DNA from: Pseudomonas migulae
Lineage (GTDB): Bacteria; Pseudomonadota; Gammaproteobacteria; Pseudomonadales; Pseudomonadaceae
Length of the DNA stretch: 64,000 nucleotides
NCBI RefSeq assembly: GCF_024169315.1
Contig: NZ_JALJWR010000001.1
Span: 5,010,501-5,074,500 of the forward strand
Direction: 5' to 3'
Shown: positions 29,030 to 47,181 of the stretch, piece by piece
How the letters are laid out: each line of letters opens with the position of its first letter
Numbering within the stretch: position 1 is the stretch's first letter
Notes under the pieces: model-generated
What the model saw: only the letters and a program-made list of their open reading frames with translations
Told to the model about the DNA's origin: nothing
Databases searched by the model: none
Translations under genes and position numbers: made by a program

Positions 29030-29341
29030 CTACCCCTCAGCCATCCCCTCCGCCCGCTTATTCGCCAACTCATTATCCCGATCCCGCGTCACCGCCTTCG
29101 CCACATCATCTACCACCGCCTTACTCATCGCCGTCAAATAATGTGCAGCCCAGGCGTGGTAATCCGTGTCCTTGGCATAAGCCGCATCCTTGGTCAGCGC
29201 CTTGGCGATACACAGAAAATCAGAAGCCATGGCCAACGCATCGCCGGCGGGCACGTTACGCGTGACATGGAACAACGCTTGATCGCCGCAGTAGATGGCG
29301 GGGGTGAGGCCGATGGTTGTGAGTTCGGGTTGATTGGTCAT
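29030..29341 (-). CDS. DUF3077 family protein (solo immunity module)
   Basis: A 103-residue protein of the DUF3077 family common in Pseudomonas genomes and phage-like elements. The core is FHVTRNVPAGDALAMASDFLCIAKAL, followed by the helix YLTAMSKAVVDDV. Its ATG overlaps the stop of a 34-codon leader ORF, and upstream on the same strand lies a P4/C4-type RNA module. The element at 46.2 kb has the same order (RNA, short ORF, DUF3077) with a related DUF3077 protein. The molecular function is unknown; the context ties it to immunity or replication control of P4-like elements. Confidence 0.8.
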   Translation of the reverse strand: MTNQPELTTIGLTPAIYCGDQALFHVTRNVPAGDALAMASDFLCIAKALTKDAAYAKDTDYHAWAAHYLTAMSKAVVDDVAKAVTRDRDNELANKRAEGMAEG

Positions 29342-29442
29342 TTGCCACCTCCGATGTGGGAGATGTGGTGGGGGAGGGTGTTACGCGATTGGGGATTGTG
29401 TAGAGGGAAAAGCCAAATTTCGTACGGATTTGTTCTGTTCAT
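29338..29442 (-). CDS. 34-codon leader ORF upstream of DUF3077
   Basis: ATG at 29442 has AAGGA seven bases upstream and the stop overlaps the DUF3077 start as ATGA. The product starts MNRTNPYEIWLFPLH and ends in a histidine/glycine-rich stretch. It is directly downstream of the second RNA target site, so antisense pairing there would affect its transcription or translation. The 52-codon ORF at 46750-46908 holds the same position in the other module. It may serve as a coupling leader or as a kil-like peptide. Confidence 0.6.
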   Translation of the reverse strand: MNRTNPYEIWLFPLHNPQSRNTLPHHISHIGGGK

Positions 29443-29477
29443 GGTCAACGTCCTTGATTTGAGGAGCTGCCACGAGC

Positions 29478-29488
29478 CTTCTCACAGG
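29478..29488 (-). promoter_or_regulatory. Target site C of the immunity RNA, solo module
   Basis: On the minus strand GTGAGAA (29479-29485) sits in the loop of an AGCCT/AGGCT hairpin, which is enclosed by a nearly complementary GTCAC/GTGGC outer stem. It is complementary to TTCTCAC in the RNA just upstream (29512-29518). The position matches seqC of phage P4. Confidence 0.7.
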
Positions 29489-29489
29489 C

Positions 29490-29575
29490 TTGGGTGACAG
29501 CCGTGCGCGGGGTGAGAAACCGGCAATCAAGGCAACCGGTAGACCCGAAGGTCTCCCACGCACAGCCGCCATAAA
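29490..29575 (-). ncRNA. P4 CI / C4-type antisense immunity RNA, solo copy
   Basis: On the minus strand an outer stem (GTGCG / CGCAC with flanking GGG/CCC) encloses two hairpins: AGACC-UUCG-type tetraloop-GGTCT and ACCGG...CCGGT. The segment TTCTCAC (29512-29518) follows the second hairpin and is complementary to a target upstream (TGTGAGA, 29645-29651) and one downstream (GTGAGAA, 29479-29485). That order, target-RNA-target, is the P4 immunity layout. The element copy at 46958-47044 has the same folds with compensatory changes. The ends are estimates; RNase P or RNase E processing is expected from P1 and P4. Confidence 0.8.
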
Positions 29576-29590
29576 GCCATATCGCAGACG

Positions 29591-29621
29591 AAAAAAAACG
29601 CCACGACAGGTTTTGGGGCGC
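29591..29621 (-). terminator. Terminator between target A and the RNA, solo module
   Basis: Minus-strand CGCC...GGCG followed by eight T. It lies between the first target hairpin and the RNA, where P4 has its immunity terminator. Confidence 0.7.
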
Positions 29622-29643
29622 TTTGCGCCTTGATTGTTTCGGG

Positions 29644-29651
29644 CTCTCACA
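29644..29651 (-). promoter_or_regulatory. Target site A of the immunity RNA, solo module
   Basis: TGTGAGAG is exposed in the loop of a CGGG/CCCG hairpin on the minus strand, about 30 bases after the promoter. Six to seven bases can pair with the RNA segment at 29512-29518. Confidence 0.65.
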
Positions 29652-29681
29652 CCCGGTCGCTGAATTGGCAGCGACTTTGGG

Positions 29682-29710
29682 AGATTATCGTGCAGATTCC
29701 GTTCCTGCAA
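29682..29710 (-). promoter_or_regulatory. Sigma-70 promoter of the solo immunity module
   Basis: On the minus strand TTGCAG and TAATCT are separated by exactly 17 bases, and the downstream CGCTGC segment is shared with the element copy, whose promoter has the same spacing. Confidence 0.7.
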
Positions 29711-29912
29711 CCTTCGAAGACTTCGATCCCAAGACCCCAAGACGAAAAAATGTGCTGCACCCTTTTTGGCAAGAGCAGCCACTACACTCAAAGGCCGTGA
29801 TCGGCCAAAAGCGGTCAATCACGACAGGCAGAGTCAACCGATAACTTACGTCCAGCATCAATATCGTCCCTGGAGCGGGGCGGAGTTACGGAGAATCCTC
29901 TACTATCGGTTT

Positions 29913-30779
29913 ATGAGTAATTACATCTATTCGTCATGCATCAAGGAGCAAGGCTTGAAAATCTCTGAAACCTCCACAGATTATGAGAAGTTGGCTCAGA
30001 AAATTTATGAGGAGATCCTTGCTCTTCAAGGTGTAGAAAATATTGACGTAAGACATAACGTGAAAATCAGGGGTAAGTCTGGTGTTGAACACCAAATAGA
30101 TGTTTTTTGGGAGTACAAATACGCGGGGATAGCTCACCGAGTACTCATAGAATGCAAGCACTATAGCCACGCAGTAAGTTTATTGCACGTTAGAAACCTA
30201 CATGGGCTTACAACAGACATTCCCAATAGCACAGGAGTAATAGTTACAACCATAGGCTTTCAATCTGGCGCCAAAGAGTACGCAGGCTTTTACGAAATGG
30301 GCCTCAAGCTTATTAGAAAACCACGTGGGGAGGACTGGAATGGCTATATTCAAATAATCAATATTCAAATGAAGTTTCTCAGAAATCATTACCTTGATTT
30401 CAAATTGTCGTTTGACGGGAAGGATCAAGCAACGAGGGATATTGTCGAACAAGACCCATCGGTCATGTCTACCAACTCGACCGAAATAGTTGTCAGAGAC
30501 GAAGGTCATGAACCCTGTGCTTTTAATTTATGGCTTGATCGGCATGTCTTGTCAGGATCTCATGGATTTGGTGTCGAAGGCGAGACGACACTGCTTCCTG
30601 AGAAGTCTTATCTCGTAACTCCGGATAGCCGAGAATTAAAGCTAGGTAAAGTTGTGGTTACGTACATGTCTACCCAGTTCGACCAAGACCTTGAAATTGA
30701 TGCTATGAATCTTGTAGAGGCGGTGCTGCAAGATTTCAGCAGTGGAGAAGTTGAGCACATGCATCATAAAAATACTTAA
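29913..30779 (+). CDS. Mrr-like restriction endonuclease fold protein
   Basis: A 288-residue protein whose first 130 residues form a PD-(D/E)xK nuclease core: HQIDVFWEY supplies the aspartate and VLIECKHY the E-C-K triad, then SLLHVRNLHGL and GVIVTTIGFQSGAKEYA as in Mrr-type enzymes. The C-terminal 150 residues are unassigned. DNA here is clearly more AT-rich than the core. No methyltransferase lies nearby, so it could be a stand-alone nuclease attacking modified or foreign DNA. The start at 29913 is preferred because residues before it read as translated intergenic repeat; the ribosome site is weak. Confidence 0.75.
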   Translation: MSNYIYSSCIKEQGLKISETSTDYEKLAQKIYEEILALQGVENIDVRHNVKIRGKSGVEHQIDVFWEYKYAGIAHRVLIECKHYSHAVSLLHVRNLHGLTTDIPNSTGVIVTTIGFQSGAKEYAGFYEMGLKLIRKPRGEDWNGYIQIINIQMKFLRNHYLDFKLSFDGKDQATRDIVEQDPSVMSTNSTEIVVRDEGHEPCAFNLWLDRHVLSGSHGFGVEGETTLLPEKSYLVTPDSRELKLGKVVVTYMSTQFDQDLEIDAMNLVEAVLQDFSSGEVEHMHHKNT

Positions 30780-31003
30780 CGAGACGCAGGCACTGGGGAA
30801 AATTTTTGCTAAGCAACAATTTTGTCGTGCTAAGGGCGTTATTATTTACTCTTCAACTACGGAATAAGGAATTAGGAAGTGACCACAGCAGTCGGCCAGA
30901 AGCAGACCTTCGCCGGGGAGTTTGTTGCGGTCAAAATCGGTAACTCGATTTTTCTACGAGTTTTGGGGTGATTTAATTATTAGGTGCATTAAAGCGAGGC
31001 GGG

Positions 31004-32170
31004 ATGAAACAATCAACTCTAAACACACTATTGGTAGCAAAAGCAATTTTTGGAAAAACCAAATCTCTAGTTAATTCCGGTGACAAACACTCTTGCACAG
31101 CTGGGATAATACTGCTTCAAGATTTCGTAGAGTTGATTGTGCTTGCCGTCCTAGACGAGCTGGATACAAACGAGCAAAGGAATTTAGAATCAAAATCTTT
31201 TGACGAACTGCTTGGCGAGTTAAAAAAACTAAATGTGCCAGTAATAAAATCCGGCACTATCAAGGCACTGAATAAGCAGAGGGTTATCTCAAAGCATTAT
31301 GGACAATTGTCAGAGCCAGCTTCCGTCGTAAACTATTTCAATACAGCAAGTATTTTTGCTGATGCTTTGTTGGAACGCGTAGTCGGTGCAAAGCTGCAAG
31401 AAATATTTCTTACGGACATTCTAAAAGATGGCTCTGCAAAAGAGCTTATAAAGGAGGCAATCTCTACTGCAGACAAAGGAGACTTTCTTGAGTCGCTGGC
31501 TAAACTGAGGAAAGCATTTTATATATCCTATGAACGCGAGTACTGCATTTACGCTTTTAGAGATCGCGAAGCGAACGACAATAGGCTTTTTGGTCTTCTA
31601 GGATTGGGCTTGAGCGGTGGAATGAAAGCCTACTATTGGACTAGAAATAAAACATGGATTGACGCAAATGTAAAAACCCCTGCGGACTTTATCCAAGTCG
31701 ATCCTGAGAAGTTAAAAACAGACTGCATGGAGTGGGGCATAAGTACGGTAGACACTGAGAACTTCAGGCGATTGACTCCAAAAGTAATTGAAACAGAGAA
31801 CGGAGTGTGGCACCTAGATTACGACACAAATTTCGCAGCCAACGAATTGAATATTGAGAACTTCAACTACTGCCTTGATATTGTTTTAGATTTTCTCTTA
31901 AAAAAGCAAGAATTTGATGCTGGGCATAAATGGCCGAAACGAGTGAAGTCAGTGCCAGCTCCACCAATTTACATTGGGAAGCCTATTTTTGAAAAGCCGT
32001 CTGAAAACTCCAACATTATTGGCAATGTAAAAGAAGGTTATTATTACTCGGTGGATAGGGTCGTGTCAGGCTTCAACGCTGGCGAACAATATCTCTATGT
32101 TCACCTTTACCTACAGGAGGCTGAGTTTTCGATAAAAGATCATATCTGGGGATACTTGTTGAATGAGTAA
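31004..32170 (+). CDS. Unknown protein with HEPN-like N-terminal region and C-terminal SH3-like domain
   Basis: A 388-residue protein from AT-rich DNA. The N-terminal 130 residues are helical, with an RxxxxH motif (RVISKH near residues 93-98) followed by a helix (FADALLERVVG), as in HEPN ribonuclease domains. The middle (about 140-310) is unassigned. The last 70 residues (KPIFEKPSENSNIIGNVKEG ... DHIWGYLL) resemble a bacterial SH3 domain. It is 225 bases downstream of the Mrr-like gene on the same strand. It may be an abortive-infection type effector. The HEPN call is by motif only and could be wrong. Confidence 0.6.
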   Translation: MKQSTLNTLLVAKAIFGKTKSLVNSGDKHSCTAGIILLQDFVELIVLAVLDELDTNEQRNLESKSFDELLGELKKLNVPVIKSGTIKALNKQRVISKHYGQLSEPASVVNYFNTASIFADALLERVVGAKLQEIFLTDILKDGSAKELIKEAISTADKGDFLESLAKLRKAFYISYEREYCIYAFRDREANDNRLFGLLGLGLSGGMKAYYWTRNKTWIDANVKTPADFIQVDPEKLKTDCMEWGISTVDTENFRRLTPKVIETENGVWHLDYDTNFAANELNIENFNYCLDIVLDFLLKKQEFDAGHKWPKRVKSVPAPPIYIGKPIFEKPSENSNIIGNVKEGYYYSVDRVVSGFNAGEQYLYVHLYLQEAEFSIKDHIWGYLLNE

Positions 32171-32536
32171 TATCATCAGCAATTCAACAGTGCCGGAGTC
32201 CTGGACTTGTTGATAGGTGCTTGCGGCCTCAGCAACTCAGGTCGAACGTCCCCAAGTGCGGGATATCGATAGTTGGTTGAAACGGTCGCTAAACTGGATG
32301 AATCGAAATACGGCTTCTTGCCGACTTCTACCTGTCGCCACCGTCAATTTTGGGTCGATTACTGCCCGTCGCGAAGGACTGAAAACGACCCTTAATGGAC
32401 GGTCACTTGGGCCGATCAGATTGAACAAACGGGCCGTTCACCCACGCTGCTGATAAAGGTTTCCCGTATTGTTTTACCTGCTCACCCAATGCGAATATGC
32501 CGCTTTGCAAACCAAGGCAACATGGAGGCTTCGCAC
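32171..32536. other. Intergenic region with decayed dispersed repeat
   Basis: No supported gene. The stretch GTCGATTACTGCCCGTCGCGAAGG near 32354-32377 is one of several related repeat fragments (others near 29800, 33253 and 35895) that punctuate this accessory region. The end holds the ribosome site of the LysE-type gene. Confidence 0.5.
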
Positions 32537-33148
32537 GTGAGCGCTACTTCTTCGATCTGGTTTTTTGTCGTGCCCTTCGCGATTGCGGCAGCAATCCCTG
32601 GCCCCGCTCAGGGAGCCCTTTTAGGTCAAGTGGTGTCGCGTGGCGCAAGGTCTACGATCCCTTTCATCGGCGGAATGGTGCTGGGTAATGCTGTCTGGCT
32701 GGTGGTCGCCACCCTCGGTCTCGCGGCGCTGGCACTGCAGTTCGAGCCTGTGTTCATCGCGGTGAAATGGCTCGGTGTTGCCTTTATCCTGTTCATCGCA
32801 TGGAACTTATGGTCGAAGAACACCGAACAACTTCAAGAACCTCCGAAGCGCTCAGCTAGCCGAGGCCTGCTTGCAGGCGCTGTGTTGACTCTGAGTAATC
32901 CAAAGGCCGTTGTATTTTTCGGCGCGGTGCTGCCTCATGCATTTGATCTGACGGCGCTGACTTGGCCAGAAGTCGTCTTTATTACCGCGCTCGGGATCGG
33001 GATCGATCTCACCATCCAACTGGTTTACCTGGTTACCGCATCGCGAATCAAGCGCACCATCCAGTCACCGAAGGCAATGAAGCGTCTGAATAGAGCGTCA
33101 GCCGGCGTAATGACCGGTTGTGCGGGCTGGATGGCCGTTTCACGCTGA
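32537..33148 (+). CDS. LysE/RhtB-family amino acid exporter
   Basis: A 203-residue inner-membrane protein with about six hydrophobic segments and the LysE family signature AIPGPAQGALLGQVVSRGAR at the start and GAVLTLSNPKAVVFFGAVLP in the middle. Members export amino acids or derivatives; the substrate cannot be predicted. The GTG at 32537 is favoured because GGAGG lies eight bases upstream; an ATG at 32522 is in frame. It has core-like base composition, unlike the two genes before it. Confidence 0.85.
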   Translation: MSATSSIWFFVVPFAIAAAIPGPAQGALLGQVVSRGARSTIPFIGGMVLGNAVWLVVATLGLAALALQFEPVFIAVKWLGVAFILFIAWNLWSKNTEQLQEPPKRSASRGLLAGAVLTLSNPKAVVFFGAVLPHAFDLTALTWPEVVFITALGIGIDLTIQLVYLVTASRIKRTIQSPKAMKRLNRASAGVMTGCAGWMAVSR

Positions 33149-33419
33149 TCTTCTCTGCAGTAAGGTTTTGCAAGCCTGCAAAGCCTTTAATAGCCCCCCT
33201 CTGCCTTCAATGATCTGATTCCTTGGTCGCATGCTTGGGTGGACGTCTGCTGTTGGCCGATAGCTGTCCGTCGCGAGTGGAAGCTAGTGGCAGGAAGCGG
33301 ACGTTGTTAACTTTGGTCGAAAGTTAAAAACTGGGGAGAGGGGGCTTGGAAAAGGGATAGGGTGGCCAGCGGCGATCTGCCTATTGGGTGTCCCCACTTT
33401 TTAGTCTGCATGCCTTCCT
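33149..33419. other. Intergenic, repeat fragment only
   Basis: A second copy of the dispersed repeat (GGCCGATAGCTGTCCGTCGC near 33256-33275) lies here. No gene or strong hairpin was seen. Confidence 0.45.
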
Positions 33420-33749
33420 TCATTGAATGTCTTTCAGATAATCCTTGAGCGCGATTAGCGGCTCTTCAAGCTGCTCCATCGCCCGCGCATTGCTGAAATC
33501 ATCTGCCAACCTGTGCAACTCACGCCCCAGTGGCGTATCAACACCGCCTAAAGCTTCCATCGCCAAACTCACGCAGTGCGCCACTCTGAACTGGATCGCG
33601 TCGACATCGCCCCTGCGCACTAGCAAGCCGAATACCTCCCGCTCATAGTCGCTCATGATCGGATCGTCCCGCAAAATCGGACTTCCACCTTCCGTCTCAT
33701 AAGCCAGCTTGAGGGCGAAAAGGGCAACGGTTTCCAGTGGCAATTCCAT
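33420..33749 (-). CDS. Hypothetical protein
   Basis: A 109-residue acidic helical protein (starts MELPLETVALFALKLAYE). The ATG at 33749 was chosen as the likely start; the longer frame to 33857 is built from repeat sequence. It lies next to the native side of the attachment site. No family was recognised. Confidence 0.6.
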   Translation of the reverse strand: MELPLETVALFALKLAYETEGGSPILRDDPIMSDYEREVFGLLVRRGDVDAIQFRVAHCVSLAMEALGGVDTPLGRELHRLADDFSNARAMEQLEEPLIALKDYLKDIQ

Positions 33750-33874
33750 TGTGTGAATCCTTGATTCGTAAGCCGAGCGGTTTCGGATTGTGGCGTTGAA
33801 AAGCAAGATCAAAAGATCGCAGCCTACGGCAGCTCCTACAGGCTGGCGGGGTTCCAACCACTTTATCGCAGGCG

Positions 33875-33905
33875 AAAAAAAAGGCCTTGCAAAGCAAGAC
33901 CTTTC
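33875..33905 (-). terminator. Former terminator of tRNA-Leu, displaced by the element
   Basis: On the minus strand AGGTCTTGC-TTT-GCAAGGCCT is followed by eight T, directly after a copy of the tRNA 3' end. It is where the tRNA gene's own terminator would have been before integration moved it 17 kb away. Confidence 0.7.
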
Positions 33906-33912: not shown

Positions 33913-33930
33913 TGGTGCCCGAGGGAGACT
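33913..33930. repeat. Attachment site, far end (partial tRNA-Leu 3' end)
   Basis: TGGTGCCCGAGGGAGACT matches the 3' end of tRNA-Leu at 51112-51130 except for one missing C. The bases beyond it no longer follow the tRNA. Confidence 0.85.
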
Positions 33931-36050: not shown

Positions 36051-37004
36051 ATGGTAAGAGTAAAAAAAGAAAGACCTGTTCTTGATGTAACCAATATTAG
36101 CCTCGAAGAGTGGCTTTCCATGGTTTTCACTTATAAAGAGAAGAGAAAATATAGATTCATAGATTTTCGCTTTCCAACAGACGCCCATGCAGCTGAATAT
36201 CTGGCCTCAGCTGAACTAAGATCGGAGTCTGAAACCAAGCACCTAATACGTTCATTTTTGATACCCCCAGGGGTTCAGGGACATGATCATCAGTTTTTTC
36301 GCCATTGGATAGATAATGGTTACCTTGCCCAGATGATTGATACGAACGAGTATGCTCGTCGCCTCGTTAAAAACGAAGGTTGGGAAGGTCTGACTTGGAT
36401 ATTAGATCTCCTCCCCGATTGGCCTCAACACGCTCTTGACGCATTGGACGCTTTCATACGGGCGCATACACTTTACCTCTCCGATGATCGTATATGGGGT
36501 CTGTGTGACGCGATTTCGATAATCCGCCACAAGTATCTACTATCATCTAATCCTCGCGACATACTTAACGATGTCTCTTCAAGGGATTTTGAGTTTCTCA
36601 TCGCCGCATTGTTTAGAAGGCAGAAATATCACGCTAAAGTCACTAAGCAGTCAAGGGATGGAGGGGCTGACGTAATATGCAGCTCAATCGATACCCCCAT
36701 CAAGCAAAAAATTCTAATTGAGTGCAAGCACCACACTGGCACCGTCGGCGTTGAGGTAATTCGTAAGCTGGCAGGAGTTGTGAGTGAAACCGGAGCCACA
36801 AGCGGCTGGGTTGTGACCTCTAGTAAATTTAGTTCGCCAGCAGTGGAATTTGCTAGTGCTACTGGGAGGATTCAGCTCCTTGATTACGTGGCATTGAACT
36901 TAAAATTTAATGAGTATTTCGGTGCGCGATGGAGTGAGCGCTTGCCATCTCTAATCAGTGAGGAACAGCGAAATCAAGTCAATCAGGCTGCTGAAGTAAG
37001 TTGA
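36051..37004 (+). CDS. Mrr-type restriction endonuclease domain protein (cargo)
   Basis: A 317-residue protein. The N-terminal 170 residues are a unique helical region. The Mrr catalytic domain (about 180-290) begins RDFEFLIAALFRRQKY and has DGGADVICSS and ILIECKHHTG, the D and E-x-K active-site residues, then VIRKLAGVV and GWVVTSSKFSSPAVEFA as in Mrr/HSDR-like enzymes. It probably cuts modified or foreign DNA. It has no methyltransferase partner. AT-rich composition marks it as cargo. The ribosome site is weak. Confidence 0.8.
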   Translation: MVRVKKERPVLDVTNISLEEWLSMVFTYKEKRKYRFIDFRFPTDAHAAEYLASAELRSESETKHLIRSFLIPPGVQGHDHQFFRHWIDNGYLAQMIDTNEYARRLVKNEGWEGLTWILDLLPDWPQHALDALDAFIRAHTLYLSDDRIWGLCDAISIIRHKYLLSSNPRDILNDVSSRDFEFLIAALFRRQKYHAKVTKQSRDGGADVICSSIDTPIKQKILIECKHHTGTVGVEVIRKLAGVVSETGATSGWVVTSSKFSSPAVEFASATGRIQLLDYVALNLKFNEYFGARWSERLPSLISEEQRNQVNQAAEVS

Positions 37005-38114: not shown

Positions 38115-39947
38115 TCAGCTCTCCTCAGTGTCGTTTTCGATAGGTGAACGGATAATTTCAAGTTTACGAATAACGGCATTAGTCTGCTGACTGCGCCAAG
38201 AAGCAACAACCCGGTCGTATCCTTCCGCTGAGCGCCGTCGAGACCAAGCCAGAGTTACCTTGGGATCGTTGCTTCTAGGTAAGTGCTCTTGGCGAGGTAA
38301 AGCAATTCGACAGCGAACAGGAAGGCGGGCTGCTTCACCAGTAATTATAGCTTCGCCAGTTCTCAAGACTGGTAACAAATCCATCAGTCCAGCGAGGTTG
38401 TCTGGCAGAGTTCCTTTCACACGTGCGCGATCTAAAGGATTGGACAGCCTTAGAGCGATGATTGTGCCACATTGAGACAAGACTGTTTCATCAACTTCTG
38501 CGGGGCGTTGGGAAACCACCATGGCTCCAACGCCATATTTACGACCTTCCTTCGCGATGCGCTTCACGACCTCGGAAGCAACGGTCCCCGCGTCAGGCCC
38601 CAGATAGCGATGAGCTTCTTCCATAACGACTAAGAGAGGCCGCTCTACGCCGCCCTCTGATTTTTCTCGGCTCCAAAAAAGCGCTTCATAAACGATACGG
38701 AGAATAGAGCCAATGAGTCGCGTTAGAACTGTGCTAGGTACGCCGGACAAGTCTAATATCGTGATTTGTTTATCATGGCCAAGCCAGCCCTTCAGCAGCT
38801 TGTCGAGGTCATTTTTTACTTTTCCAGATAGTTCTGGCTCCCAATCTCCGGGATGAAGCAAAAAGTCATAGCGCCTGTCTAGCAAACGGGATCGAAGCAA
38901 GTTCAATGGCCTACGGATACCCTTGGCCGCTGCATTAGTGAATGGACCTTTGGCACCCATTGCATGAGGCTGGTACTTAGGCGCAACAAGTGCCTCTGCG
39001 TCACCTTCTTCTTCAAGCGCAGGTTCATCACGATTTGCTCCGAGATAAGTGGTGGTTTCAAAGTTAACCAATTCGTACCATAGCTGTTTCAAACTAAACG
39101 GAACTGGGCTATCTACAGTAAGAGTTCTTGAATCCACACCTGCTCTTGGATAAGAGCTAATCCCTTTTTCTTTCAGTTCCGCAATTTTATCAGTGAAGGC
39201 AATTTCGTGGGCATCGGATAGCCCTCCCGTGATGAAATCCAAAAGCTCTCCTGCCTCCAAAGCCCAATAAGGAACGAACAAAGACTCCTGTCCTTGGATG
39301 GGAGTTGCACTAAATACAGTCGCTACATCCTCAAGAGCTTTCGTGTATTCGCCATGGATATCGAGCATGAGAATGCGGGCGCCTGGAGATCCCGTCTTTT
39401 CATCTTTCCGAATGATAGACCGTAAGAGGCTTGCTACAGTTGTGGATTTCCCCGCCCCTGTTGAACCGAGTATTGCGGAATGCCGCGTCACAAGTGCATC
39501 CAAGGATAGGCGCACCTCTATATTTTCAGCGCTCGCGAGGTGACCTATGACTACTTGATCTTCACCGATCGAGCCGTATATTCTTCTCAGATCGGACTCG
39601 ATAACTAAGTGTACCGAATCGTTTATATTAGGATGCTGGCTAAGCCCTCTTTCGAATTGCCCCCCGACCGTTTCACCAGCAAGCTGCACCGTCATCCATC
39701 TACCTGAATCAATACCTGAAATATCTGACTGTTTTGGTGCAGCAGTAGCGCCAACTTCGGAAACAATGCCGAATAGGTCTTGATAGCCCTGAGGGATTCT
39801 AACAAAACTGCCAACTTGGCCAACTCGATATGTATGGCCTTTGATAACGGCAAAGCCTGAGTCAAGTGACTCTGCTAGTTTTATAGTGAGTGTGGCTCCT
39901 GAAACGGCACTGACGACGCCTAAGTAGGTGGGATCATTGCCACTCAT
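38115..39947 (-). CDS. herA: HerA-type ATPase of a SIR2-HerA defence system
   Basis: A 610-residue FtsK/HerA-family ATPase. An N-terminal HAS-barrel-like beta domain (about 1-145) is followed by Walker A GSTGAGKST (about 161-169), LMLDIHGEY, Walker B LLVVMEEAHRYLG, the RRIAKEGRKYGV-type arginine region and SQRPAEVDETVLSQCGT. HerA forms a hexameric ring; in SIR2-HerA it assembles with SIR2 to deplete NAD during infection. The start overlaps the SIR2 stop as ATGA. It is followed at once by the KTSC gene. Confidence 0.93.
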   Translation of the reverse strand: MSGNDPTYLGVVSAVSGATLTIKLAESLDSGFAVIKGHTYRVGQVGSFVRIPQGYQDLFGIVSEVGATAAPKQSDISGIDSGRWMTVQLAGETVGGQFERGLSQHPNINDSVHLVIESDLRRIYGSIGEDQVVIGHLASAENIEVRLSLDALVTRHSAILGSTGAGKSTTVASLLRSIIRKDEKTGSPGARILMLDIHGEYTKALEDVATVFSATPIQGQESLFVPYWALEAGELLDFITGGLSDAHEIAFTDKIAELKEKGISSYPRAGVDSRTLTVDSPVPFSLKQLWYELVNFETTTYLGANRDEPALEEEGDAEALVAPKYQPHAMGAKGPFTNAAAKGIRRPLNLLRSRLLDRRYDFLLHPGDWEPELSGKVKNDLDKLLKGWLGHDKQITILDLSGVPSTVLTRLIGSILRIVYEALFWSREKSEGGVERPLLVVMEEAHRYLGPDAGTVASEVVKRIAKEGRKYGVGAMVVSQRPAEVDETVLSQCGTIIALRLSNPLDRARVKGTLPDNLAGLMDLLPVLRTGEAIITGEAARLPVRCRIALPRQEHLPRSNDPKVTLAWSRRRSAEGYDRVVASWRSQQTNAVIRKLEIIRSPIENDTEES

Positions 39948-41200
39948 TTCTGATCTTCCTGTGCTTCAGTTTCATTGCCGTTAATGCCATCAAATTCGCC
40001 TTCGTTCTGGCTCGGCTCGTCTCTTTTCAAAGATTTTGTTATCAGATCATTGGCTTGCGCTAAGGCGCAGAAGCGAGCGAAAGCTGCAAAGTCTCCTAAT
40101 AGAAACACGGCTGGCTCTTTTGGCCATCGCGGAGCCCAAAAACTCTCGCGAATACTTCCCCAGTTCTTTGGAAGTTCTCCCGGGCGCCACTTCCCTGAAA
40201 CGCCACCTATTACAGCGCCGTCAGCCGCATAAACGCTCAAGTTAGGTCTGTCGTTAGCTAACTTAACTACAGGCTCTTCTTTTTCCATGGTTTGATATTG
40301 AAATGCCAATACTGCTGAATTGGCATTCATTGCTAAGCTCTCATCAAGAACTGCACAAATATGGGCATCTCTGAAAGAAAACCCAATCGCCAGCAATAAC
40401 GAATCTGGCGTAAGCAAAAATCTTTTAAGCCTCTCAAAAAGAGCTGAGTATGGCTGCTTTTGAGTAAGATCATATTTTAAGTGGTCAGGATAGACCAGCT
40501 CAGCAGCGTCTCGCCCATGCCCTCGTACAACTGCTCCGTCTTCTAAAGCCCAGCCTAGGGAACCATGCATCTTCCAGAGTTTCGCCCAGCGTGCAGGTAA
40601 GTCATCGCCGGCTACTGATACTGGGTCGAAGAAAGGTTTACTGCCCCCTGAAAATCCATCGAAATAGGGGCTTCTGACTCTTTCAAATGCTTCTTCGAAA
40701 AGAAAGTCATAGTTCGTGGTGAATATTTCTACAGAATTTGAGCGCACCGTGCCCGTAATCCATGCGATCAAATCGGAATAGGCATTGCGCTCTTTTGGTA
40801 AGGAAACACCAACGATTTGACCAATCTTTTTACATACTTCCTTCCCTAGATCCTTATACCCGTTGGAGTCCAGCCCTTGGACAACAGTTTCTCCCAGTGC
40901 CTGCTCTAATAAACGGATGCGTGAAAGAATTGACTCAATATTCGCGCTAGTACCCAAACTTGCTTTTATAGCGTCGACTGCCCCTGTCTGAGTTTCTGTA
41001 AGCCCGGAAGTCGCCTGTTGTGTAAGCGCATCGACACCAGGAATAAGCGAATTCCCTTCAGGATCTAACTCATTATTTTTGTTAACGCGAATTGCAAGCG
41101 GCGCTCCCGCGCCAACAAGAATTCCGATACGCTTTCTTCCCTGCGACAATACTTGCCGCAAGTCGGACATAAACCTATCTGGATTGTGGAACGTTTCCAT
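39944..41200 (-). CDS. SIR2-domain NADase of a SIR2-HerA defence system
   Basis: A 418-residue protein with a SIR2 fold: NAD-binding GILVGAGAP (about 26-34), FTTNYDFLFEEAF (160-172) and the catalytic histidine in KMHGSLGW (H212), then LLLAIGFSFRDAHI. The C-terminal 100 residues are variable and end in an acidic tail. In known SIR2-HerA systems the SIR2 part hydrolyses NAD and causes abortive infection. The ATG at 41200 follows AGGGGG at good spacing; a TTG at 41269 is in frame. It is first in the sir2-herA-KTSC operon. Confidence 0.92.
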   Translation of the reverse strand: METFHNPDRFMSDLRQVLSQGRKRIGILVGAGAPLAIRVNKNNELDPEGNSLIPGVDALTQQATSGLTETQTGAVDAIKASLGTSANIESILSRIRLLEQALGETVVQGLDSNGYKDLGKEVCKKIGQIVGVSLPKERNAYSDLIAWITGTVRSNSVEIFTTNYDFLFEEAFERVRSPYFDGFSGGSKPFFDPVSVAGDDLPARWAKLWKMHGSLGWALEDGAVVRGHGRDAAELVYPDHLKYDLTQKQPYSALFERLKRFLLTPDSLLLAIGFSFRDAHICAVLDESLAMNANSAVLAFQYQTMEKEEPVVKLANDRPNLSVYAADGAVIGGVSGKWRPGELPKNWGSIRESFWAPRWPKEPAVFLLGDFAAFARFCALAQANDLITKSLKRDEPSQNEGEFDGINGNETEAQEDQK

Positions 41201-41640
41201 CGTTCGCCCCCTAGGTATTGCCAAATGAAATCCTGCAGTAGGACCTCTAAATTCGACAACAGCTCTCAAGTCTTAGGTTATACGCTTCACCTCTACGATC
41301 ATCTTTGAGTGCGGTCTCACCTCTGAAGATGTCACGAGTTTGCTTGAGTCAGGGAGCAGTAAAGCTGACGAAACGTTACCCTGCCAGGATTTCCGGTAAT
41401 CGCTCGTGGTTATGCTCAATCTGTCTAGTTTCCATGGTGCCCATGAACCGGGCTGATTTTTCGACCCGTAGCGCCTTTCCCTCACCAGATCCTACGGATC
41501 TAAATCGAACCGATTCGAATATCCGGTTTCCACCCGATAGCTTCAATCCAATCTTGCTGTTAAAACACCTGACTGCGCATGTCTTTCTTCACTTCGGCGT
41601 GGAGCTGTTGGGTGATTTTGTAGATCATAGGCAAGAAGCA
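41201..41640. other. Intergenic region upstream of SIR2
   Basis: Promoter region for the defence operon and the tail of the replication operon. Open frames here lack ribosome sites and homology. Nothing else is recognised. Confidence 0.45.
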
Positions 41641-41680: not shown

Positions 41681-42046
41681 TTACTTCCTCAGCCATCCTT
41701 CGACGACGTTGGCTCCGTGTTTCGCTTTCCACTCTTTCAAAGCTTTGTGGTTCCCACCTTTGGTTTCGATCACTTCACCGGTATTCGGATTTTTGTAGAC
41801 CTTGAGTTCGCGTGGTTTACGTGTGCTGGCGGCCGGAGCTGCGGCTTGACGCCGCGCCATGGTGTGCGGCTCTAGAATGTTGATGATGTGCTTCAGACTG
41901 AAACCATAGTGTTCGAGCAGCTTGCGCAGCTTTGTCTCGAACTCGATTTCTTTCTTCAGTCCGTCATCACCTTTCAGTGCTTCCAGTGCCTGGAGCTGCT
42001 CAGCGAGGTGTTTTTCCAGCTGGCGGTACTCTGCGAGTTTGGACAT
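41681..42046 (-). CDS. MvaT-family nucleoid silencer carried by the element
   Basis: A 121-residue H-NS-like protein of the MvaT/MvaU family. An N-terminal coiled-coil oligomerisation part (residues 1-60) is followed by the AT-rich DNA-binding end VYKNPNTGEVIETKGGNHKALKEWKAK. Such proteins silence foreign AT-rich DNA in Pseudomonas; plasmid-borne copies (for example Pmr of pCAR1) modulate the host. Here it probably silences the AT-rich cargo next door. AAGG lies upstream of the ATG at 42046, and a terminator follows at 41641. Confidence 0.9.
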   Translation of the reverse strand: MSKLAEYRQLEKHLAEQLQALEALKGDDGLKKEIEFETKLRKLLEHYGFSLKHIINILEPHTMARRQAAAPAASTRKPRELKVYKNPNTGEVIETKGGNHKALKEWKAKHGANVVEGWLRK

Positions 42047-42298: not shown

Positions 42299-43205
42299 TG
42301 CAATCATCCTTACGTTGTTCCAGGTTGCTCATGACTTCAGGTTGGTGCGGTGTCGGTATGCCGTCGAGCAGGATTAAGTCCCGCGCGCGGTACTGGCGCG
42401 AGCGAGCTGATAGCTCTTCCCATGTCCACCTCCCAAAGTTCTCGCCTTGCTCTGGAACCACCAGCTTCATGAGTCCAATCTGGTCGCGGCCAAGAAGGTT
42501 GTAGTTGGCCCACAGTTTTCCGCCCGCCTCAAACAACGCTTTAGCGGCCTCGTTCCACTTCTCTTCGAGCACTGTCTGCGAGAGCAACAGGGCGGTGCGC
42601 TCTATCTCTTCATGCTTTACCTGAGCTTCTGCGATGTATTTATCTACAGTGACCAGCTCCTGCTCCAGCGCGGCCATGATCAAGTGTTGCCGACGGTTAT
42701 GTTCGGCGGCAGTTGTCAGATTCTTTGCGGCCTTTTGTGCGTCGGCGTTCGCGGTTTTCTCGCCTTCAGTATCGCCCCAAGCAACGGCCTGCGCGTACGC
42801 AGTTGCAGCGTCCGTTTCGGCTTGACGGGCTTTGGTCATGTCCTCTTCCGCCTGTTGTTGAATCTGCTCCAGGCGTGTGCTGAGGCTCTGGCGCTTTTCC
42901 TCCAGCTCCTGCTCATCAGCCTTCCAGTTATCCATTGCCTCGATGTGAGCCGTCATCAAGGATTCGCAATTAGCGAGGTTTTCACTGCGACTAATCCTCC
43001 GATCCAAAAGGTCAGCATTGAGATTGCGCGAATCGAAGTTCCGTTTCAGCTCGTTGTACGCGTCGCGTAATTTGCGCTCGCGATCCGGTTCGATGGCGTC
43101 GTCGCTTTCCAGTACCGTTTCGAGGGGCAGCAAGTCGGCGTGCAGCCGTTCTGCCTCGCTGCGCAGTTGGTCGCGGCGGTCTTTCAGTTCTTGAATTTCG
43201 TTCAT
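42261..43205 (-). CDS. Long coiled-coil protein of the replication operon
   Basis: A 314-residue protein that is almost wholly charged coiled coil through residue 210 (ELKDRRDQLRSEAERLHADL and similar). A short C-terminal domain (from KWNEAAKALFEAGGKLWANY) is globular. It resembles coiled-coil partners found next to phage primases but has no named family. The start at 43205 is 92 bases after the primase stop; the longer frame to 43322 overlaps the primase end. Confidence 0.7.
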   Translation of the reverse strand: MNEIQELKDRRDQLRSEAERLHADLLPLETVLESDDAIEPDRERKLRDAYNELKRNFDSRNLNADLLDRRISRSENLANCESLMTAHIEAMDNWKADEQELEEKRQSLSTRLEQIQQQAEEDMTKARQAETDAATAYAQAVAWGDTEGEKTANADAQKAAKNLTTAAEHNRRQHLIMAALEQELVTVDKYIAEAQVKHEEIERTALLLSQTVLEEKWNEAAKALFEAGGKLWANYNLLGRDQIGLMKLVVPEQGENFGRWTWEELSARSRQYRARDLILLDGIPTPHQPEVMSNLEQRKDDCNEQADTEQRQLV

Positions 43206-43296
43206 GGTCTGGTCTCTTTCAATTCGATTGTGGGTTGGTTGAGTGGCTGGCGAGGCCGGGAATAAGCCGGCGCTACCTCGATCAGCAGAGATGCCC

Positions 43297-46203
43297 TCAG
43301 GCAGCCCTAGCCTCGCTCTCATCCATTCCCGGAATCGTCTTCACGATGTAGCAACGTTGCGTGCCGAGGCCGGGTAGCCGGATAAGGCTCGACGCCTTAC
43401 CGTCCTTCCCGGGTTCCAGAACACCTCGCTGCAGCAATTCCTTGTTCACCGCGTTGATGTTCATGCCTCGGAAGATCTCCGAGCGCCATAATTCGGGAAG
43501 CACGTAGTAGGTGTTGGTGGTGTGCAGGGAATCGCCCAAACCGTGTTCCAGCGTCTTACGAAAACCGAGACGGTCGATGGTGCGCGGACCGTGCTCATCG
43601 ATTTTTGCCGCTGCTGATTCCCAGCGGGTGAAGCGACTTTCGCCAAAGCGCTCGATGACCTGGCGCAGCCGAGCCAAGATCGCATCGCCCTCGAAGTTAC
43701 CGGCACCGCCGCGCTCGTTCATCCATGCGTTGAGGCACACGCGAGCGGCAGTGGTGGCGGTTCCGTCGGGCCAGCCGGTGATCCCCATCGCGGTGGCCAG
43801 CTCGCCCGCTGCTGCGGCGAGACCGAAGCGAGCGGCGGCACGGTGCGCTTGTCCACTGGCCGACGCCGGTAACGACTGGGCGATAAAGCCTTCCAGCGTA
43901 CGGCGCAGGATGGCGGACCATCCGTGACGCTTACCGGGTTCACACAGCGCCGTCAGGAAGGCAGTGAGCGGCGTGCCGTAGTACTTCGCTACGCGAGCCT
44001 TGAGCGCGTCGGACAGTGCCGCTGCATCTTCAAAACCGTTGAGCGTATCGAACATGCCGAGGCCTTTGCTGGCATCGGCCGGGACAGCAAGCATGCGCAC
44101 TTCCATACCCGCTTTCAGTTCCTTGTTCGCTTCGGCCATGTGCTGGGCCAACGTCTTCTCGCCGGTGGAGAGAAACAGCAGGCGCCACTCCTGTACCTGT
44201 CGGCCAGCTTGGCCTCGATCGTTAGCGCGTGCCTTGCCAGTGCCGTTGCCGAGCATGTACACCGTTTCGCCGATGATGCGCGGGTCGCACATGCCGATTT
44301 CATCCAAGACCAGAAGGCCGTCGGAATGCGCGGCGGCGATGGATTCCAGCGCGTTGTCGGTGGAGCGCCACGAACGCACCAGACGCGGCCCGCCGTAAAT
44401 CGAAGCGGCAACCTGCAAGTGGGTGGTCTTGCCGCCGGAGCTGTCGCCGTACAGGTGAAAGCCGCCCGACTCATGGCCAAGCATGTGCAGCAACGGCCCT
44501 GCGAAGGCCACGCCCACGACAAATGCCAAGCGGTGATTACCGATGCACAGCGCGCCGATCTGCTCCTGCCATTGCTCAAGTGTGCCCGCTTCGCTGATCG
44601 GCGGAAGTTGCGAGCCGGCTTCGTAAAAGTGCAGGTGCTCGTTGTGCTCGCCGACCTGCTGCTCGGGCAGTAGAAAGGCAGTGTCATGCCAACCCAAGCG
44701 CGTGACCAGTCGAGCTCGTTGCGCGCTGTCGAAGCCGCCGAGATAACTCTGCAGGTCATTGCGTGCATTGCGGCCAGAACGACTGCCTGCGAGGCGTAGC
44801 CCCATGTCCACCAGCGGACCCAGCACATCTTTGCCGAAGTCACCGGTCATGGTGCGCGCCGGAATGTTCCAGCGCTTCTTGGCGCCGTCGGGATCGTCAA
44901 ATTCAACCAACAATCCCCAGTTCTGGCCCTTGTCGTCGCGAGTGCGGGCAAGGATCTCCAGTGGGGAACACACCGGACGCGCCTCACCGTCGTCACCGGC
45001 GTAAAACACACCTTCGGACGTGAGGCGAAAGCCACCGGGCATCAGATCGTTTTTCGATTTTGTCGGGCGCTTGGCTGCTGATTTCGTCTTCGCTTCCGGT
45101 TTGGCTTCAGGCTGCTCCGTTGCTGGCTTTTCTTCGACTAATCCATACAGCTCGCCGCTGGTCTCCAGCTCGGAGAAATGGGCGGCTGTCCAATTTTTTG
45201 TGAGAGCATCAGCAGCGTCATCACCATCATCCCATTGACCACCTTTGGCGAAAGCGGCGCGGCCACTTTTCAGCGTGGGCTTGCGTTTGAACGAGTCCAG
45301 AGCGATGAAACGGACCGAGGCGGCTCCGATTTCGCGCAGCTTTTCGGCGACGGTTTTCATGCAAGCTTTGCCGCTGTCGTCGTTGTCAGGCCACAACAGC
45401 ACATCGCGACCCTTAAGTGGTGTCAGGTCAGCTTTATGCCAGGAGTTGGAACCGTTCGGCCAGCAGGTGGCCACGTGGCTCGGCAGCAGTTCGGCGGCAG
45501 CGTCGGCAGCTTTCTCTCCTTCGCACAAAACTACCGGTGCGTCAGTGCGTTGAGCCAGTTCATCAAGTCGCAGCAGCGGACGTGGATCGGGCAGACCCTG
45601 CCAGCGCCATTGCGTGGTCTGGCCATCGGCGCGCTGACACCATGTTAGGGGTGCAAAAACCTTCTTCGGCTTGCCGTCCTCGTCAGGGGCGAAGTCGAAG
45701 CGGTAGAGCGCCATAAGCGGCTGGCCTTGCGCATCACGGTAGATCCAGACCTTGGACGGCACGCCGTGCTGCCGATGCTTGGCGGGGCACTTGTTCATCG
45801 CCTCCGCTGGTATCGGCTGAACGGCAATCCACTCGGGTGCTTTTGTTTTGGCAGGAGCTGTCTTCGCCTGGGCGGCGCCGGGCGACACGTTGAGCAATTC
45901 TGCGAGTTGGTTGCAGGCCTCGATGTCGGTGCCGCCGTCCAGATAGCGCACCAGATCAATCAGGTCGCCGCCCTTGTCGCCGGTGGCAAAGTCGGACCAT
46001 GTGCCTTTGCTCAAACTGATCTTGAGCGAACCGGCGCGCTTGTCGCTGCGGGTTGGATTCGGTGCGGTGTATTCCTTGCCGCCATCGACGCGCTTGCCGT
46101 TGGGCAGCCAGTGCGACAAGACACGATCAATGTCTTTCAGCGCGGCGGCCTTCACGTCGGCAAAACTTGGACGTTTCGTGTTGCTATTCGGGCGCTGGCT
46201 CAT
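43297..46203 (-). CDS. TOPRIM/DUF927 primase-helicase, replication protein
   Basis: A 968-residue replication protein. The N-terminal 100 residues are a CHC2-like binding region (SLSKGTWSDFATGDKGGDLIDLV). A TOPRIM domain follows (VVLCEGEKAADAA, then VLLWPDNDDSGKA), then a lysine/proline-rich linker, then a DUF927 helicase domain with Walker A YGDSSGGKTTHL and Walker B LLVLDEIGM. This is the P4 alpha-like function of the element: primer synthesis and unwinding from the iteron origin. The start overlaps the DUF3077 stop as ATGA. Confidence 0.9.
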   Translation of the reverse strand: MSQRPNSNTKRPSFADVKAAALKDIDRVLSHWLPNGKRVDGGKEYTAPNPTRSDKRAGSLKISLSKGTWSDFATGDKGGDLIDLVRYLDGGTDIEACNQLAELLNVSPGAAQAKTAPAKTKAPEWIAVQPIPAEAMNKCPAKHRQHGVPSKVWIYRDAQGQPLMALYRFDFAPDEDGKPKKVFAPLTWCQRADGQTTQWRWQGLPDPRPLLRLDELAQRTDAPVVLCEGEKAADAAAELLPSHVATCWPNGSNSWHKADLTPLKGRDVLLWPDNDDSGKACMKTVAEKLREIGAASVRFIALDSFKRKPTLKSGRAAFAKGGQWDDGDDAADALTKNWTAAHFSELETSGELYGLVEEKPATEQPEAKPEAKTKSAAKRPTKSKNDLMPGGFRLTSEGVFYAGDDGEARPVCSPLEILARTRDDKGQNWGLLVEFDDPDGAKKRWNIPARTMTGDFGKDVLGPLVDMGLRLAGSRSGRNARNDLQSYLGGFDSAQRARLVTRLGWHDTAFLLPEQQVGEHNEHLHFYEAGSQLPPISEAGTLEQWQEQIGALCIGNHRLAFVVGVAFAGPLLHMLGHESGGFHLYGDSSGGKTTHLQVAASIYGGPRLVRSWRSTDNALESIAAAHSDGLLVLDEIGMCDPRIIGETVYMLGNGTGKARANDRGQAGRQVQEWRLLFLSTGEKTLAQHMAEANKELKAGMEVRMLAVPADASKGLGMFDTLNGFEDAAALSDALKARVAKYYGTPLTAFLTALCEPGKRHGWSAILRRTLEGFIAQSLPASASGQAHRAAARFGLAAAAGELATAMGITGWPDGTATTAARVCLNAWMNERGGAGNFEGDAILARLRQVIERFGESRFTRWESAAAKIDEHGPRTIDRLGFRKTLEHGLGDSLHTTNTYYVLPELWRSEIFRGMNINAVNKELLQRGVLEPGKDGKASSLIRLPGLGTQRCYIVKTIPGMDESEARAA

Positions 46204-46472
46204 GTGTCAGCCCTCGGCAGAAACAGTGCGTCGTTGATGTCATCAATCAGCGCTTTGGCCATCTCGCCAAGGTACAGAGCAGGCCAACTGAAACGCTCAC
46301 CGCTATCGCTCATGGCGGCGTCTAAGTTGAGTTGGTTGGCGTGATGCTGCAGCAGGGAAACCATCTCCAGTGCATCCTCGACCGGTACTCCGGCATTGAC
46401 CCGGAACAACTTCAAGTCGGAGGCATTCACGCGAGTAAATGTAGCGTGACCGAGTGTGGTGGAGGTGTTCAT
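46200..46472 (-). CDS. DUF3077 family protein (element copy)
   Basis: A 90-residue DUF3077 protein (FRVNAGVPVEDALEMVSLLQHH, then LYLGEMAKALIDDI). It overlaps the next gene at each end as ATGA, so the whole operon is translationally coupled. The family recurs in the solo module at 29.0 kb. It may control replication or immunity, but no activity is known. Confidence 0.82.
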   Translation of the reverse strand: MNTSTTLGHATFTRVNASDLKLFRVNAGVPVEDALEMVSLLQHHANQLNLDAAMSDSGERFSWPALYLGEMAKALIDDINDALFLPRADT

Positions 46473-46753
46473 AGCGCACCGCCTTTTTGCATGGCGGCCG
46501 TCGAGGTGTTGTCACCGTGCAAGGCGAGGATTTTGATCAGGCCGAGGGTGCCGCGCACGTCCCAAAGGATGGCTGCAATAACGTGGTTTGCGAGGCGGGG
46601 TGACTCGCTGTCGAAGTGATCTTCAAGCAGCGTCAGCACCGAGTCGGCTCTCGTAATAGCGCAGGTGATGGCGTCGATAGGCACACCGGCTTCTGCTTTT
46701 GGATTCACGCAGAGCAGGTCTTCGGGCAGGGCGAAGCTCAAAGCATTGTTCAT
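46469..46753 (-). CDS. Hypothetical protein of the replication operon
   Basis: A 94-residue protein starting MNNALSFALPEDLLCVNP. A longer frame to 47248 exists, but it would cross the immunity RNA and its hairpins, so the internal ATG at 46753 is preferred; this ATG overlaps the stop of the 52-codon ORF. The last helices (AILWDVRGTLGLIKILALHGD) resemble small DUF3077-associated proteins. The function is unknown. Confidence 0.7.
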   Translation of the reverse strand: MNNALSFALPEDLLCVNPKAEAGVPIDAITCAITRADSVLTLLEDHFDSESPRLANHVIAAILWDVRGTLGLIKILALHGDNTSTAAMQKGGAL

Positions 46754-46908
46754 TGGGCACCGCCTGCGGTTTCGAGTGCGCGGGCTTTGGCCATGTGAGC
46801 GTTGTAACGGGAGAGGCGTGTAGCGAGGCTGGAATTGGCGTGTAAAGCGGCGAGAGCCATTGCACGGTGTGCCGCGGCGCGAATTTTGGACGGATTGAGG
46901 GCGTGCAT
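46750..46908 (-). CDS. 52-codon leader ORF below the immunity RNA
   Basis: ATG at 46908 has AGGAG eight bases upstream; the stop overlaps the next gene as ATGA. The product (MHALNPSKIRAAAHRAMALA...) is alanine- and arginine-rich and basic. It is the first coding sequence after the RNA's downstream target, in the same place as the 34-codon ORF at 29338. In P4 the corresponding place holds kil/eta; a toxic or leader role is possible. Confidence 0.65.
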   Translation of the reverse strand: MHALNPSKIRAAAHRAMALAALHANSSLATRLSRYNAHMAKARALETAGGAQ

Positions 46909-46940
46909 CTGGCGAAGCTCCTATTGTTGAGGAGCTGCCA

Positions 46941-46959
46941 CGTTCGTTACCAAGCGAAT
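46941..46959 (-). promoter_or_regulatory. Target site C of the immunity RNA, element copy
   Basis: TTGGTAA (46947-46953 on the minus strand) lies in the loop of an ATTCG/CGAAC-type hairpin inside a perfect GCTGCCAC / GTGGCAGC outer stem. It pairs with TTACCAA of the RNA upstream. Confidence 0.7.
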
Positions 46960-47044
46960 GGGTGGCAGCTGTGCGCAGGTTGGTAAACCGGGACAATAGG
47001 AACCCGGCAGACCCGAAGGTCTCCCACGCACAGCCGCCATAAAA
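46958..47044 (-). ncRNA. P4 CI / C4-type antisense immunity RNA, element copy
   Basis: The minus-strand fold has an outer GTGCG/CGCAC stem, an AGACC-UUCG-GGTCT hairpin and a second GCCGGGTT/GGG-type hairpin, followed by TTACCAA (46980-46986). That segment is complementary to TTGGTAA in the upstream hairpin (47115-47121) and in the downstream one (46947-46953). The scaffold is nearly identical to 29490-29575, but the pairing segments changed together from TTCTCAC/GTGAGAA to TTACCAA/TTGGTAA. The exact ends are estimates. Confidence 0.85.
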
Positions 47045-47059
47045 CGGATTTGCGGGCGC

Positions 47060-47092
47060 AAAAAAAGCGCCTGCAAAAGAGATATGGGCGCT
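47060..47092 (-). terminator. Immunity terminator of the element copy
   Basis: GCGCC and GGCGC on the minus strand form a stem followed by seven T, between target A and the RNA. Confidence 0.75.
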
Positions 47093-47111
47093 GTTGCGCC
47101 TATTGTTCAAC

Positions 47112-47125
47112 GGGTTACCAAGCCC
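47112..47125 (-). promoter_or_regulatory. Target site A of the immunity RNA, element copy
   Basis: TTGGTAA is exposed in a CGGGC/CCCG hairpin on the minus strand, about 30 bases after the promoter. Confidence 0.7.
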
Positions 47126-47152
47126 GGTCACTGAATTTGCAGCGACGGCCAA

Positions 47153-47181
47153 AGAGTAACGTCCGTTTTTCGAAAGTGCAA
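47153..47181 (-). promoter_or_regulatory. Sigma-70 promoter of the immunity/replication operon
   Basis: TTGCAC and TACTCT on the minus strand are 17 bases apart, in the same relation to target A as the promoter of the solo module. Confidence 0.72.

Follow-up and report, generated by a model that had tools for sequence, protein, structure and literature searches.

C4-type antisense RNA modules of Pseudomonas migulae and the turnover of their pairing codes

C4 RNAs and the two modules of the window

The established C4 RNA is processed by RNase P to an RNA of about 77 nt, which represses in trans and blocks translation at the a2b2 target. In P4, pairing with the nascent RNA leads to Rho-dependent termination. 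We have analysed a stretch of 64,000 nt of Pseudomonas migulae (GCF_024169315.1, NZ_JALJWR010000001.1:5,010,501-5,074,500, forward strand), here called the window, with two modules on its minus strand, module 1 at 29338-29710 and module 2 at 46750-47181. With a probability of roughly 85%, both are C4-type self-repressing operons in which two codes act as an address and are changed as a matched set.

The C4 of the phages P1 and P7 is a three-stem RNA with the segments a' and b', where b' occludes the ribosome-binding site, and the two C4 RNAs differ in specificity (PMC12197685; PMC5320573). The modules described here share the a' and b' pairing segments and the a1/b1 targets upstream (Rfam RF03163), but they mostly precede DUF3077, DUF6124, Bro-N and unnamed small genes, and each of six complete genomes has 21-42 matches. 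Module 2 resembles the P4 CI RNA immunity region in the short leader open reading frame (ORF) and the primase-type gene that follow it, and in an AlpA-like protein and a tRNA-linked integrase. It differs from P4 in that the primase-type protein carries DUF927 and a DUF3077 gene lies within the operon. In Gifsy-1, IsrK is what remains when a transcript that otherwise runs on into a 45-aa ORF and a gene for an antirepressor terminates early, and this upstream RNA activates the downstream ORF in trans (PMC4825925). The a1b1 element of module 2 with the following stretch scored 53.3 bits against the isrK model, and module 1 was not among the Rfam matches to it. Trans activation has been demonstrated only for IsrK; the sponge role considered below is our own suggestion.

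In Acinetobacter baumannii AB5075, the Group 1 small RNAs (sRNAs) comprise 21 C4-like RNAs that RNA-seq detected and that seem to be cleaved at a GGW site, and host or phage targets were suggested for them (PMC5320573). Many C4-like RNAs in one bacterial genome are common to AB5075 and our case, and multicopy C4 is therefore not new. That paper describes variability in one section only for a' (with respect to P1/P7) and in its discussion for a' and b', whereas here b varies most; the parts covered give no cis targets or controlled genes. C4 biology, the heteroimmunity of P1 and P7 and the 21-copy family of Acinetobacter are already known. Apparently new are the genus-wide gene modules with cis targets, the mixing of two codes and the exchange of b alleles at one and the same locus. 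No paper on a Pseudomonas C4 family was found in the open-licence literature (titles and abstract starts; subscription papers were outside the search); for DUF3077 it yielded a single paper and for DUF6124 none. The C4 scaffold might correspond to R178, a P. fluorescens repeat family (101 bp, 18, 28 and 9 copies; PMC2718517).

The two modules have the same order on the minus strand, namely a putative promoter, c4-a1b1, the C4 RNA, the a2 hairpin, b2 and a short leader ORF (Table 1). The Rfam gathering cut-offs were 45 bits for C4 (RF01695), 46.7 for c4-a1b1 (RF03163) and 50 for isrK (RF01394), and both segments lay above the scores for C4 and c4-a1b1. According to the structure line of the Rfam C4 model, b' falls within the loop of a hairpin, and a' is part of a strand that is not paired. 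Both segments are complementary to a1/b1 and a2/b2 in both modules, and b2 overlaps a motif like a Shine-Dalgarno (SD) sequence in both. The reported exchange of the a-triplets as a set, GTGAGAG/TTCTCAC/GTGAGAA versus TTGGTAA/TTACCAA/TTGGTAA, was confirmed in the letters, and so were the different stems around a2, AGCCT/AGGCT and TTCG/CGAA. Three pairing segments had been proposed; the a triplet is correct, but the code was incomplete, as the b1/b'/b2 triplet had been overlooked. Putative promoters with a 17-base spacing can be read in the letters of both modules, and promoter-like hexamers were seen by eye upstream of many other modules.

In the proposed mechanism, a single promoter would give one transcript that comprises a1b1, the C4 RNA and, behind a2b2, a gene. 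After its excision from this transcript, C4 would pair by means of two short codes, a' binding to the a2 hairpin and b' to b2 on or next to the ribosome-binding site, and the b2 pairing would block the translation of the gene's own ORF or of its leader. C4 should also be able to pair with a1b1 and may promote early termination there, as in the P4 case. Alternatively, the terminated a1b1 RNA could act as a C4 sponge, by analogy with IsrK. Paralogues and orthologues would change the address, above all b, as a matched set. Autorepression of the C4 type is very likely. The sequences themselves show the anatomy, the self-complementarity, codes that are nearly unique within genomes, and the turnover at one orthologous locus; from them we infer transcription, processing, repression and the role of the genes.

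The two-part pairing code

The genome holds 26 C4 matches, all above the cut-off, where the initial annotation had described two modules. The code segments are a' and b' in the C4 RNA, with the targets a1/b1 upstream and a2/b2 before the controlled ORF. Four pairings were scored (a'/a1, a'/a2, b'/b1 and b'/b2), and a pairing was counted as held with at least 6 bp. For none of the four did any of 100,000 permutations attain the mean self-pairing of the 26 modules; here the b1 search region included a1, and some b1 picks were a1 itself (e.g. 3323778). When b1 was sought solely in the 30 nt after a1, the self score was 18.0 against 10.9 for non-self (0/20,000 permutations). All four pairings were held in 22 of the 26 modules with the restricted b1 and in 23 by the looser test. 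They were also held in 104 of 126 modules of this and other genomes, a set that omits the short locus L015 and seven loci of other genera (L089-L095). In this larger set a2 and b2 were both paired in 89.7% of the self versus 13.8% of the non-self comparisons. The Rfam matches together with the permutations bear out the earlier proposal of a C4-type antisense RNA with swapped specificity; its wording as direct evidence for an antisense immunity RNA was too strong for what sequence can tell.

The duplex energies gave a similar picture. For the 26 modules, a2 and b2 together had -23.4 kcal/mol for self and -13.2 kcal/mol for non-self; the own target was strictly best for 23 of the C4 RNAs, and the own C4 was strictly best for 21 of the targets. 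The C4 of module 1 scored -9.7/-13.7 kcal/mol with its own a2/b2 and -4.9/-8.7 with those of module 2, and the C4 of module 2 -7.0/-16.9 with its own and -2.1/-8.9 with those of module 1. This supports, as a prediction, the earlier statement that the two modules do not cross-regulate. The end of b2 was found 0-10 nt before the ATG in 22 of the 25 modules with an ORF, and b2 overlapped an SD-like motif by at least 3 nt in 16 of them.

The codes are nearly unique within a genome. In three fully listed genomes, no pair of modules had an identical a'+b' (0/325, 0/435 and 0/276). Identical a' occurred in 11, 9 and 9 of these pairs, and identical b' in 0, 0 and 1, counted in a fixed window from which shifted copies can escape. 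Free of the register, an 8-mer was common to the b' regions in 17/325, 7/435 and 9/276 pairs, many of them through the conserved loop start. Of 54 viral loci from IMG/VR, 48 could be parsed, 24 of these with a P4-type leader. With the IMG/VR contigs, 161 modules contained 44 a' codes, 102 b' codes and 124 combinations, taken as exact fixed-window strings. Since 22 a' codes were combined with at least two b' codes and 12 b' codes with at least two a' codes, the two codes mix. In other genomes, the exact code of module 2 was seen again in three modules, all with a P4-type leader, and that of module 1 recurred in one module.

Copies in the genus and code turnover at one locus

The satellite leader stands behind only two of the 26 modules, 5057458 (module 2) and 4083067. 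Most of the other 24 precede small genes of the DUF3077, DUF6124, Bro-N and unnamed families; 1852530 has no ORF, and a few others appear degenerate. In this genome, 8 of 10 DUF3077 matches lie behind a C4, two of these in satellite operons, and so do 6 of the 7 DUF6124 genes (8 rows). A C4 match above the cut-off was present in 366 of a sample of 398 Pseudomonas genomes, including this one, where no more than 10 matches were counted per genome. Six other complete Pseudomonas genomes had 42, 24, 30, 21, 35 and 36 matches (E <= 0.001, with at least one below the cut-off). Only 6 of 36 genomes from other genera of the order had a match, five with one and one with six. The latter (G412), with five of its six matches above the cut-off, possibly represents a smaller independent expansion. 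C4-like DNA also occurred in 33 phage and 15 plasmid records. In another species, tandem C4 matches about 150-170 bases apart were seen at G061:C1:1136623-1136875 and 868644-868881, one pair with identical b'.

The turnover of the code was followed at the locus of the Bro-N module 3695645, next to a gene for a PII protein, which by its translation we take to be of the GlnK type. The flank was found in 149 of 149 Pseudomonas genomes searched, in some partially, and the best 50 of these flank matches, a non-random sample, were evaluated. C4 was present in 25 of the 50 loci, one of them a broken remnant. C4 and gene occurred together in 24, the gene alone in none, the remnant alone in one and neither in 25, including L214, which is cut by a contig end. 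At L213 (G038), about 750 bases of the module are missing and a 76-base 3' piece is kept, likely a deletion scar that points to module loss.

The 24 parsed orthologues, from 24 species, all had the a' core TCGCCAA, whereas b' fell into seven classes by our own lumping (L215 was left out of the allele count). The b'/b2 score was 23.4 for self, 23.6 within the same allele and 11.4 with another allele. Allele-level permutations reached the observed value in 7 of 20,000 cases for b2 and in 74 of 20,000 for b1. On the upstream-flank tree with 24 tips, parsimony needed 14 allele changes, with 10 of 21 inner branches open; in two cases sister species joined at 100/99 support differed in their allele. 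Between different alleles, the identity was 0.77 in the flank, 0.76 in the ORF, 0.85 in the C4 scaffold and 0.94 in a. For b1, b' and b2 it was 0.57, 0.53 and 0.49, compared with 0.47, 0.50 and 0.44 after shuffling. At this orthologous locus b', b2 and, less tightly, b1 change together as a matched set. The initial annotation had asked that loop changes at one site be matched at the others; b' and b2 behave so, but b1 is looser and mismatched in the commonest allele. Changed b codes were also observed at two further loci conserved on both flanks (3492360 vs G046_L111 and 3086031 vs G046_L114).

Genes of the modules and competing explanations

Both segments had been called immunity modules, which is not supported for the pair. 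In the element of module 2, a C4-type RNA, a leader ORF, a primase gene and an integrase occur together, along with the AlpA-like protein. Module 2 heads a satellite operon, which from its gene content we take to be P4-like, and would be its switch. Leaders resembling that of module 2 stand behind C4 in other genomes and IMG/VR contigs. Module 1 lacks the operon of a P4-like satellite immunity region: no replication gene follows its leader and DUF3077 in the operon, and the next larger ORFs beyond them, which were outside the family searches, have plus-strand orientation. Its leader ORF had no family match in Pfam or NCBIfam, and the 94-aa ORF of module 2 had none in the protein family searches.

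Table 1. Features of the two modules and of the adjoining genes in window coordinates
Feature	Position	Strand	Evidence
Module 1 putative promoter TTGCAG-17-TAATCT	29682..29710	-	read from letters
Module 1 c4-a1b1 element (RF03163)	29636..29688	-	Rfam 54.3 bits
Module 1 a1 GTGAGAG, hairpin loop	29644..29650	-	
Module 1 b1 CAATCAAGG	29628..29636	-	
Module 1 C4 antisense RNA (RF01695)	29490..29576	-	Rfam 80.7 bits
Module 1 b' CCTTGATTG, hairpin loop	29524..29532	-	
Module 1 a' TTCTCAC	29512..29518	-	
Module 1 a2 GTGAGAA, hairpin AGCCT/AGGCT	29479..29485	-	
Module 1 b2 AATCAAGG, overlaps SD-like AAGG of leader ORF	29452..29459	-	
Module 1 leader ORF, 34 aa; stop overlaps DUF3077 start	29338..29442	-	
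Module 1 controlled gene, DUF3077 (PF11275), 103 aa	29030..29341	-	E 8e-24
Module 2 putative promoter TTGCAC-17-TACTCT	47153..47181	-	read from letters
Module 2 c4-a1b1 element (RF03163)	47107..47159	-	Rfam 56.5 bits
Module 2 isrK (RF01394) match, overlapping c4-a1b1	47060-47146	-	Rfam 53.3 bits, cut-off 50
Module 2 a1 TTGGTAA	47115..47121	-	
Module 2 b1 ACAATAGG	47099..47106	-	
Module 2 C4 antisense RNA (RF01695)	46958..47044	-	Rfam 89.5 bits
Module 2 b' CCTATTGT, hairpin loop	46993..47000	-	
Module 2 a' TTACCAA	46980..46986	-	
Module 2 a2 TTGGTAA, hairpin TTCG/CGAA	46947..46953	-	
Module 2 b2 ACAATAGGAGC, covers SD AGGAG	46917..46927	-	
Module 2 leader ORF, 52 aa	46750..46908	-	
94-aa ORF overlapping module 2 leader stop	46469..46753	-	
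DUF3077 gene of satellite operon, 90 aa	46200..46472	-	E 1.8e-23
Primase/helicase-type protein (DUF927; phrog_1139 DNA primase), 968 aa	43297..46203	-	
Tyrosine integrase adjoining tRNA-Leu 51112-51196	49706..51043	-	

The ends of the satellite element were not found in the window. As an attachment site, a second copy of the 3' end of tRNA-Leu was sought, and its 25-mer was found nowhere else in the window; a 15-mer of this end with two mismatches at 33917 is a weak candidate. An MvaT-type xenogeneic silencer gene (PF22055, E 2.6e-22) lies in the satellite region at 41681-42046 (-). Adjacent proteins encoded at 38115-41269 (-) match the PADLOC models of SIR2 (E 7e-159) and HerA (E 5e-162). With the satellite genes on one side and genes for Mrr-type nucleases (29766-30779 and 36051-37004) on the other, this is a defence-rich island. 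A common superfamily of DUF3077, DUF6124 and an unnamed family could not be shown, with hhalign probabilities of 0.4, 0.5 and 0.0 percent from shallow alignments (Neff <1.9). Solved relatives of DUF3077 gave nothing significant (best E 0.36), and tblastn with the window protein found no match in phage records. The AlphaFold model of DUF3077 suggests mainly two helices, at a mean pLDDT of 70 too weak for interpretation.

Several observations weigh against the reading as self-repressing operons with matched codes. The consensus promoter scan, itself weak, reached no site in either module. The terminator that had been annotated was absent from the equally weak scan of the module 1 minus strand; of two weak candidates in module 2 one lay where expected (47087-47100), about at the level of shuffled sequences. 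At least one pairing fell below 6 bp in 22 of the 126 modules, and three C4 RNAs of this genome had a better non-cognate target by energy. The loosest part is b1, which was below 6 bp in 3 of the 26 modules; no more than 14 of these had themselves as the strictly best regulator of b1. At the glnK-side locus, the mean b'/b1 scores barely separated (13.9 self, 11.5 same allele, 12.2 other), the commonest allele had two mismatched bases in its b1, and two of the seven allele representatives did not find their best target in their own b2. Module 1 and 4066687 in the same genome have the same b core CCTTGATT with a different a (cross energies -2.6/-10.7 and -2.1/-11.5). The DUF3077 operon 4994665 (L140, G000:C1:4994500-4995200, -) has kept a1b1 and the leader ORF and has lost C4, it seems through a deletion within the operon, which makes the switch dispensable at this site. 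Finally, non-homologous modules shared codes at similar rates whether co-resident or not (11/553 vs 107/4102, Fisher p 0.47).

This last result also bears on what drives the turnover. One candidate driver is the avoidance of crosstalk among co-resident modules, at somewhat less than even odds. Modules with an ORF identity of at least 0.5 shared codes in 4 of 59 pairs within and 76 of 287 between genomes (p 0.0006; 22 of the 126 modules lay outside the quality set used in this test). In the tandem 412294/413154, the first 200 nt after the leader are 98% identical and a' is 100% identical, b' only 60%. However, the contrast within and between genomes is confounded with orthology, the b core shared by module 1 and 4066687 is contrary to avoidance, and among unrelated co-resident modules there was no signal.

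It is unlikely that the chromosomal C4 RNAs are a host defence that silences incoming P4-like satellites or phages with the same a2b2 code. Such a role was proposed for the C4-like RNAs of Acinetobacter (PMC5320573), and the commonest glnK-side allele shares its a and b cores with a module of another genome that has a P4-type leader (G270_L021). Predicted perfect a+b matches to the 24 IMG/VR modules with P4-type leaders were nevertheless 0/24 in each of three genomes, where 21 shuffles decoupling a and b gave means of 1.5, 0.3 and 0.5. Matching codes were thus no commoner than chance for known satellites, and most modules have their own cis target.

Also unlikely is that the non-satellite modules are decayed satellite or prophage remnants kept by chance, with a functionless gene and a pairing inherited rather than selected: the b'/b2 pairing is kept though the sequences drift to near-random identity between orthologues, so that selection on the pairing is needed, C4 and gene co-occur at the glnK-side locus, and 21-42 matches are found in the six complete genomes. 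Decay would fit the same scaffold and DUF3077 in the P4-like operon of the window, the combination of this scaffold with leaders of the P4 type elsewhere (other genomes, IMG/VR contigs), the degenerate copies (1852530; a DUF6124 frame split in two beside 412294) and the mere pieces at L213 and L215.

Beyond the self-repressing operons, we tentatively consider, as a possibility that the odds do not favour, that an immunity RNA of phages has become, across the genus Pseudomonas, an addressing system of near-orthogonal two-code antisense RNAs, one per gene, with b replaced like an allele. Dozens of chromosomal genes per cell might then each be checked by a C4 from their own transcript, a proposal we hold with the same reserve. 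The b code could, equally tentatively, resemble an allele of mating type or immunity and be exchanged time and again at fixed loci, perhaps because a module that shared its code could be silenced by another locus or by an invading satellite.

About 26 antisense pairs, natural and nearly orthogonal, share one scaffold within a single genome, and one locus has seven allele classes across species. It is a testing ground for the positions that set specificity, for the co-change of linked segments and for crosstalk in sRNA evolution. DUF3077 and DUF6124, on which there is hardly any open-licence literature, would thereby also gain a regulator.

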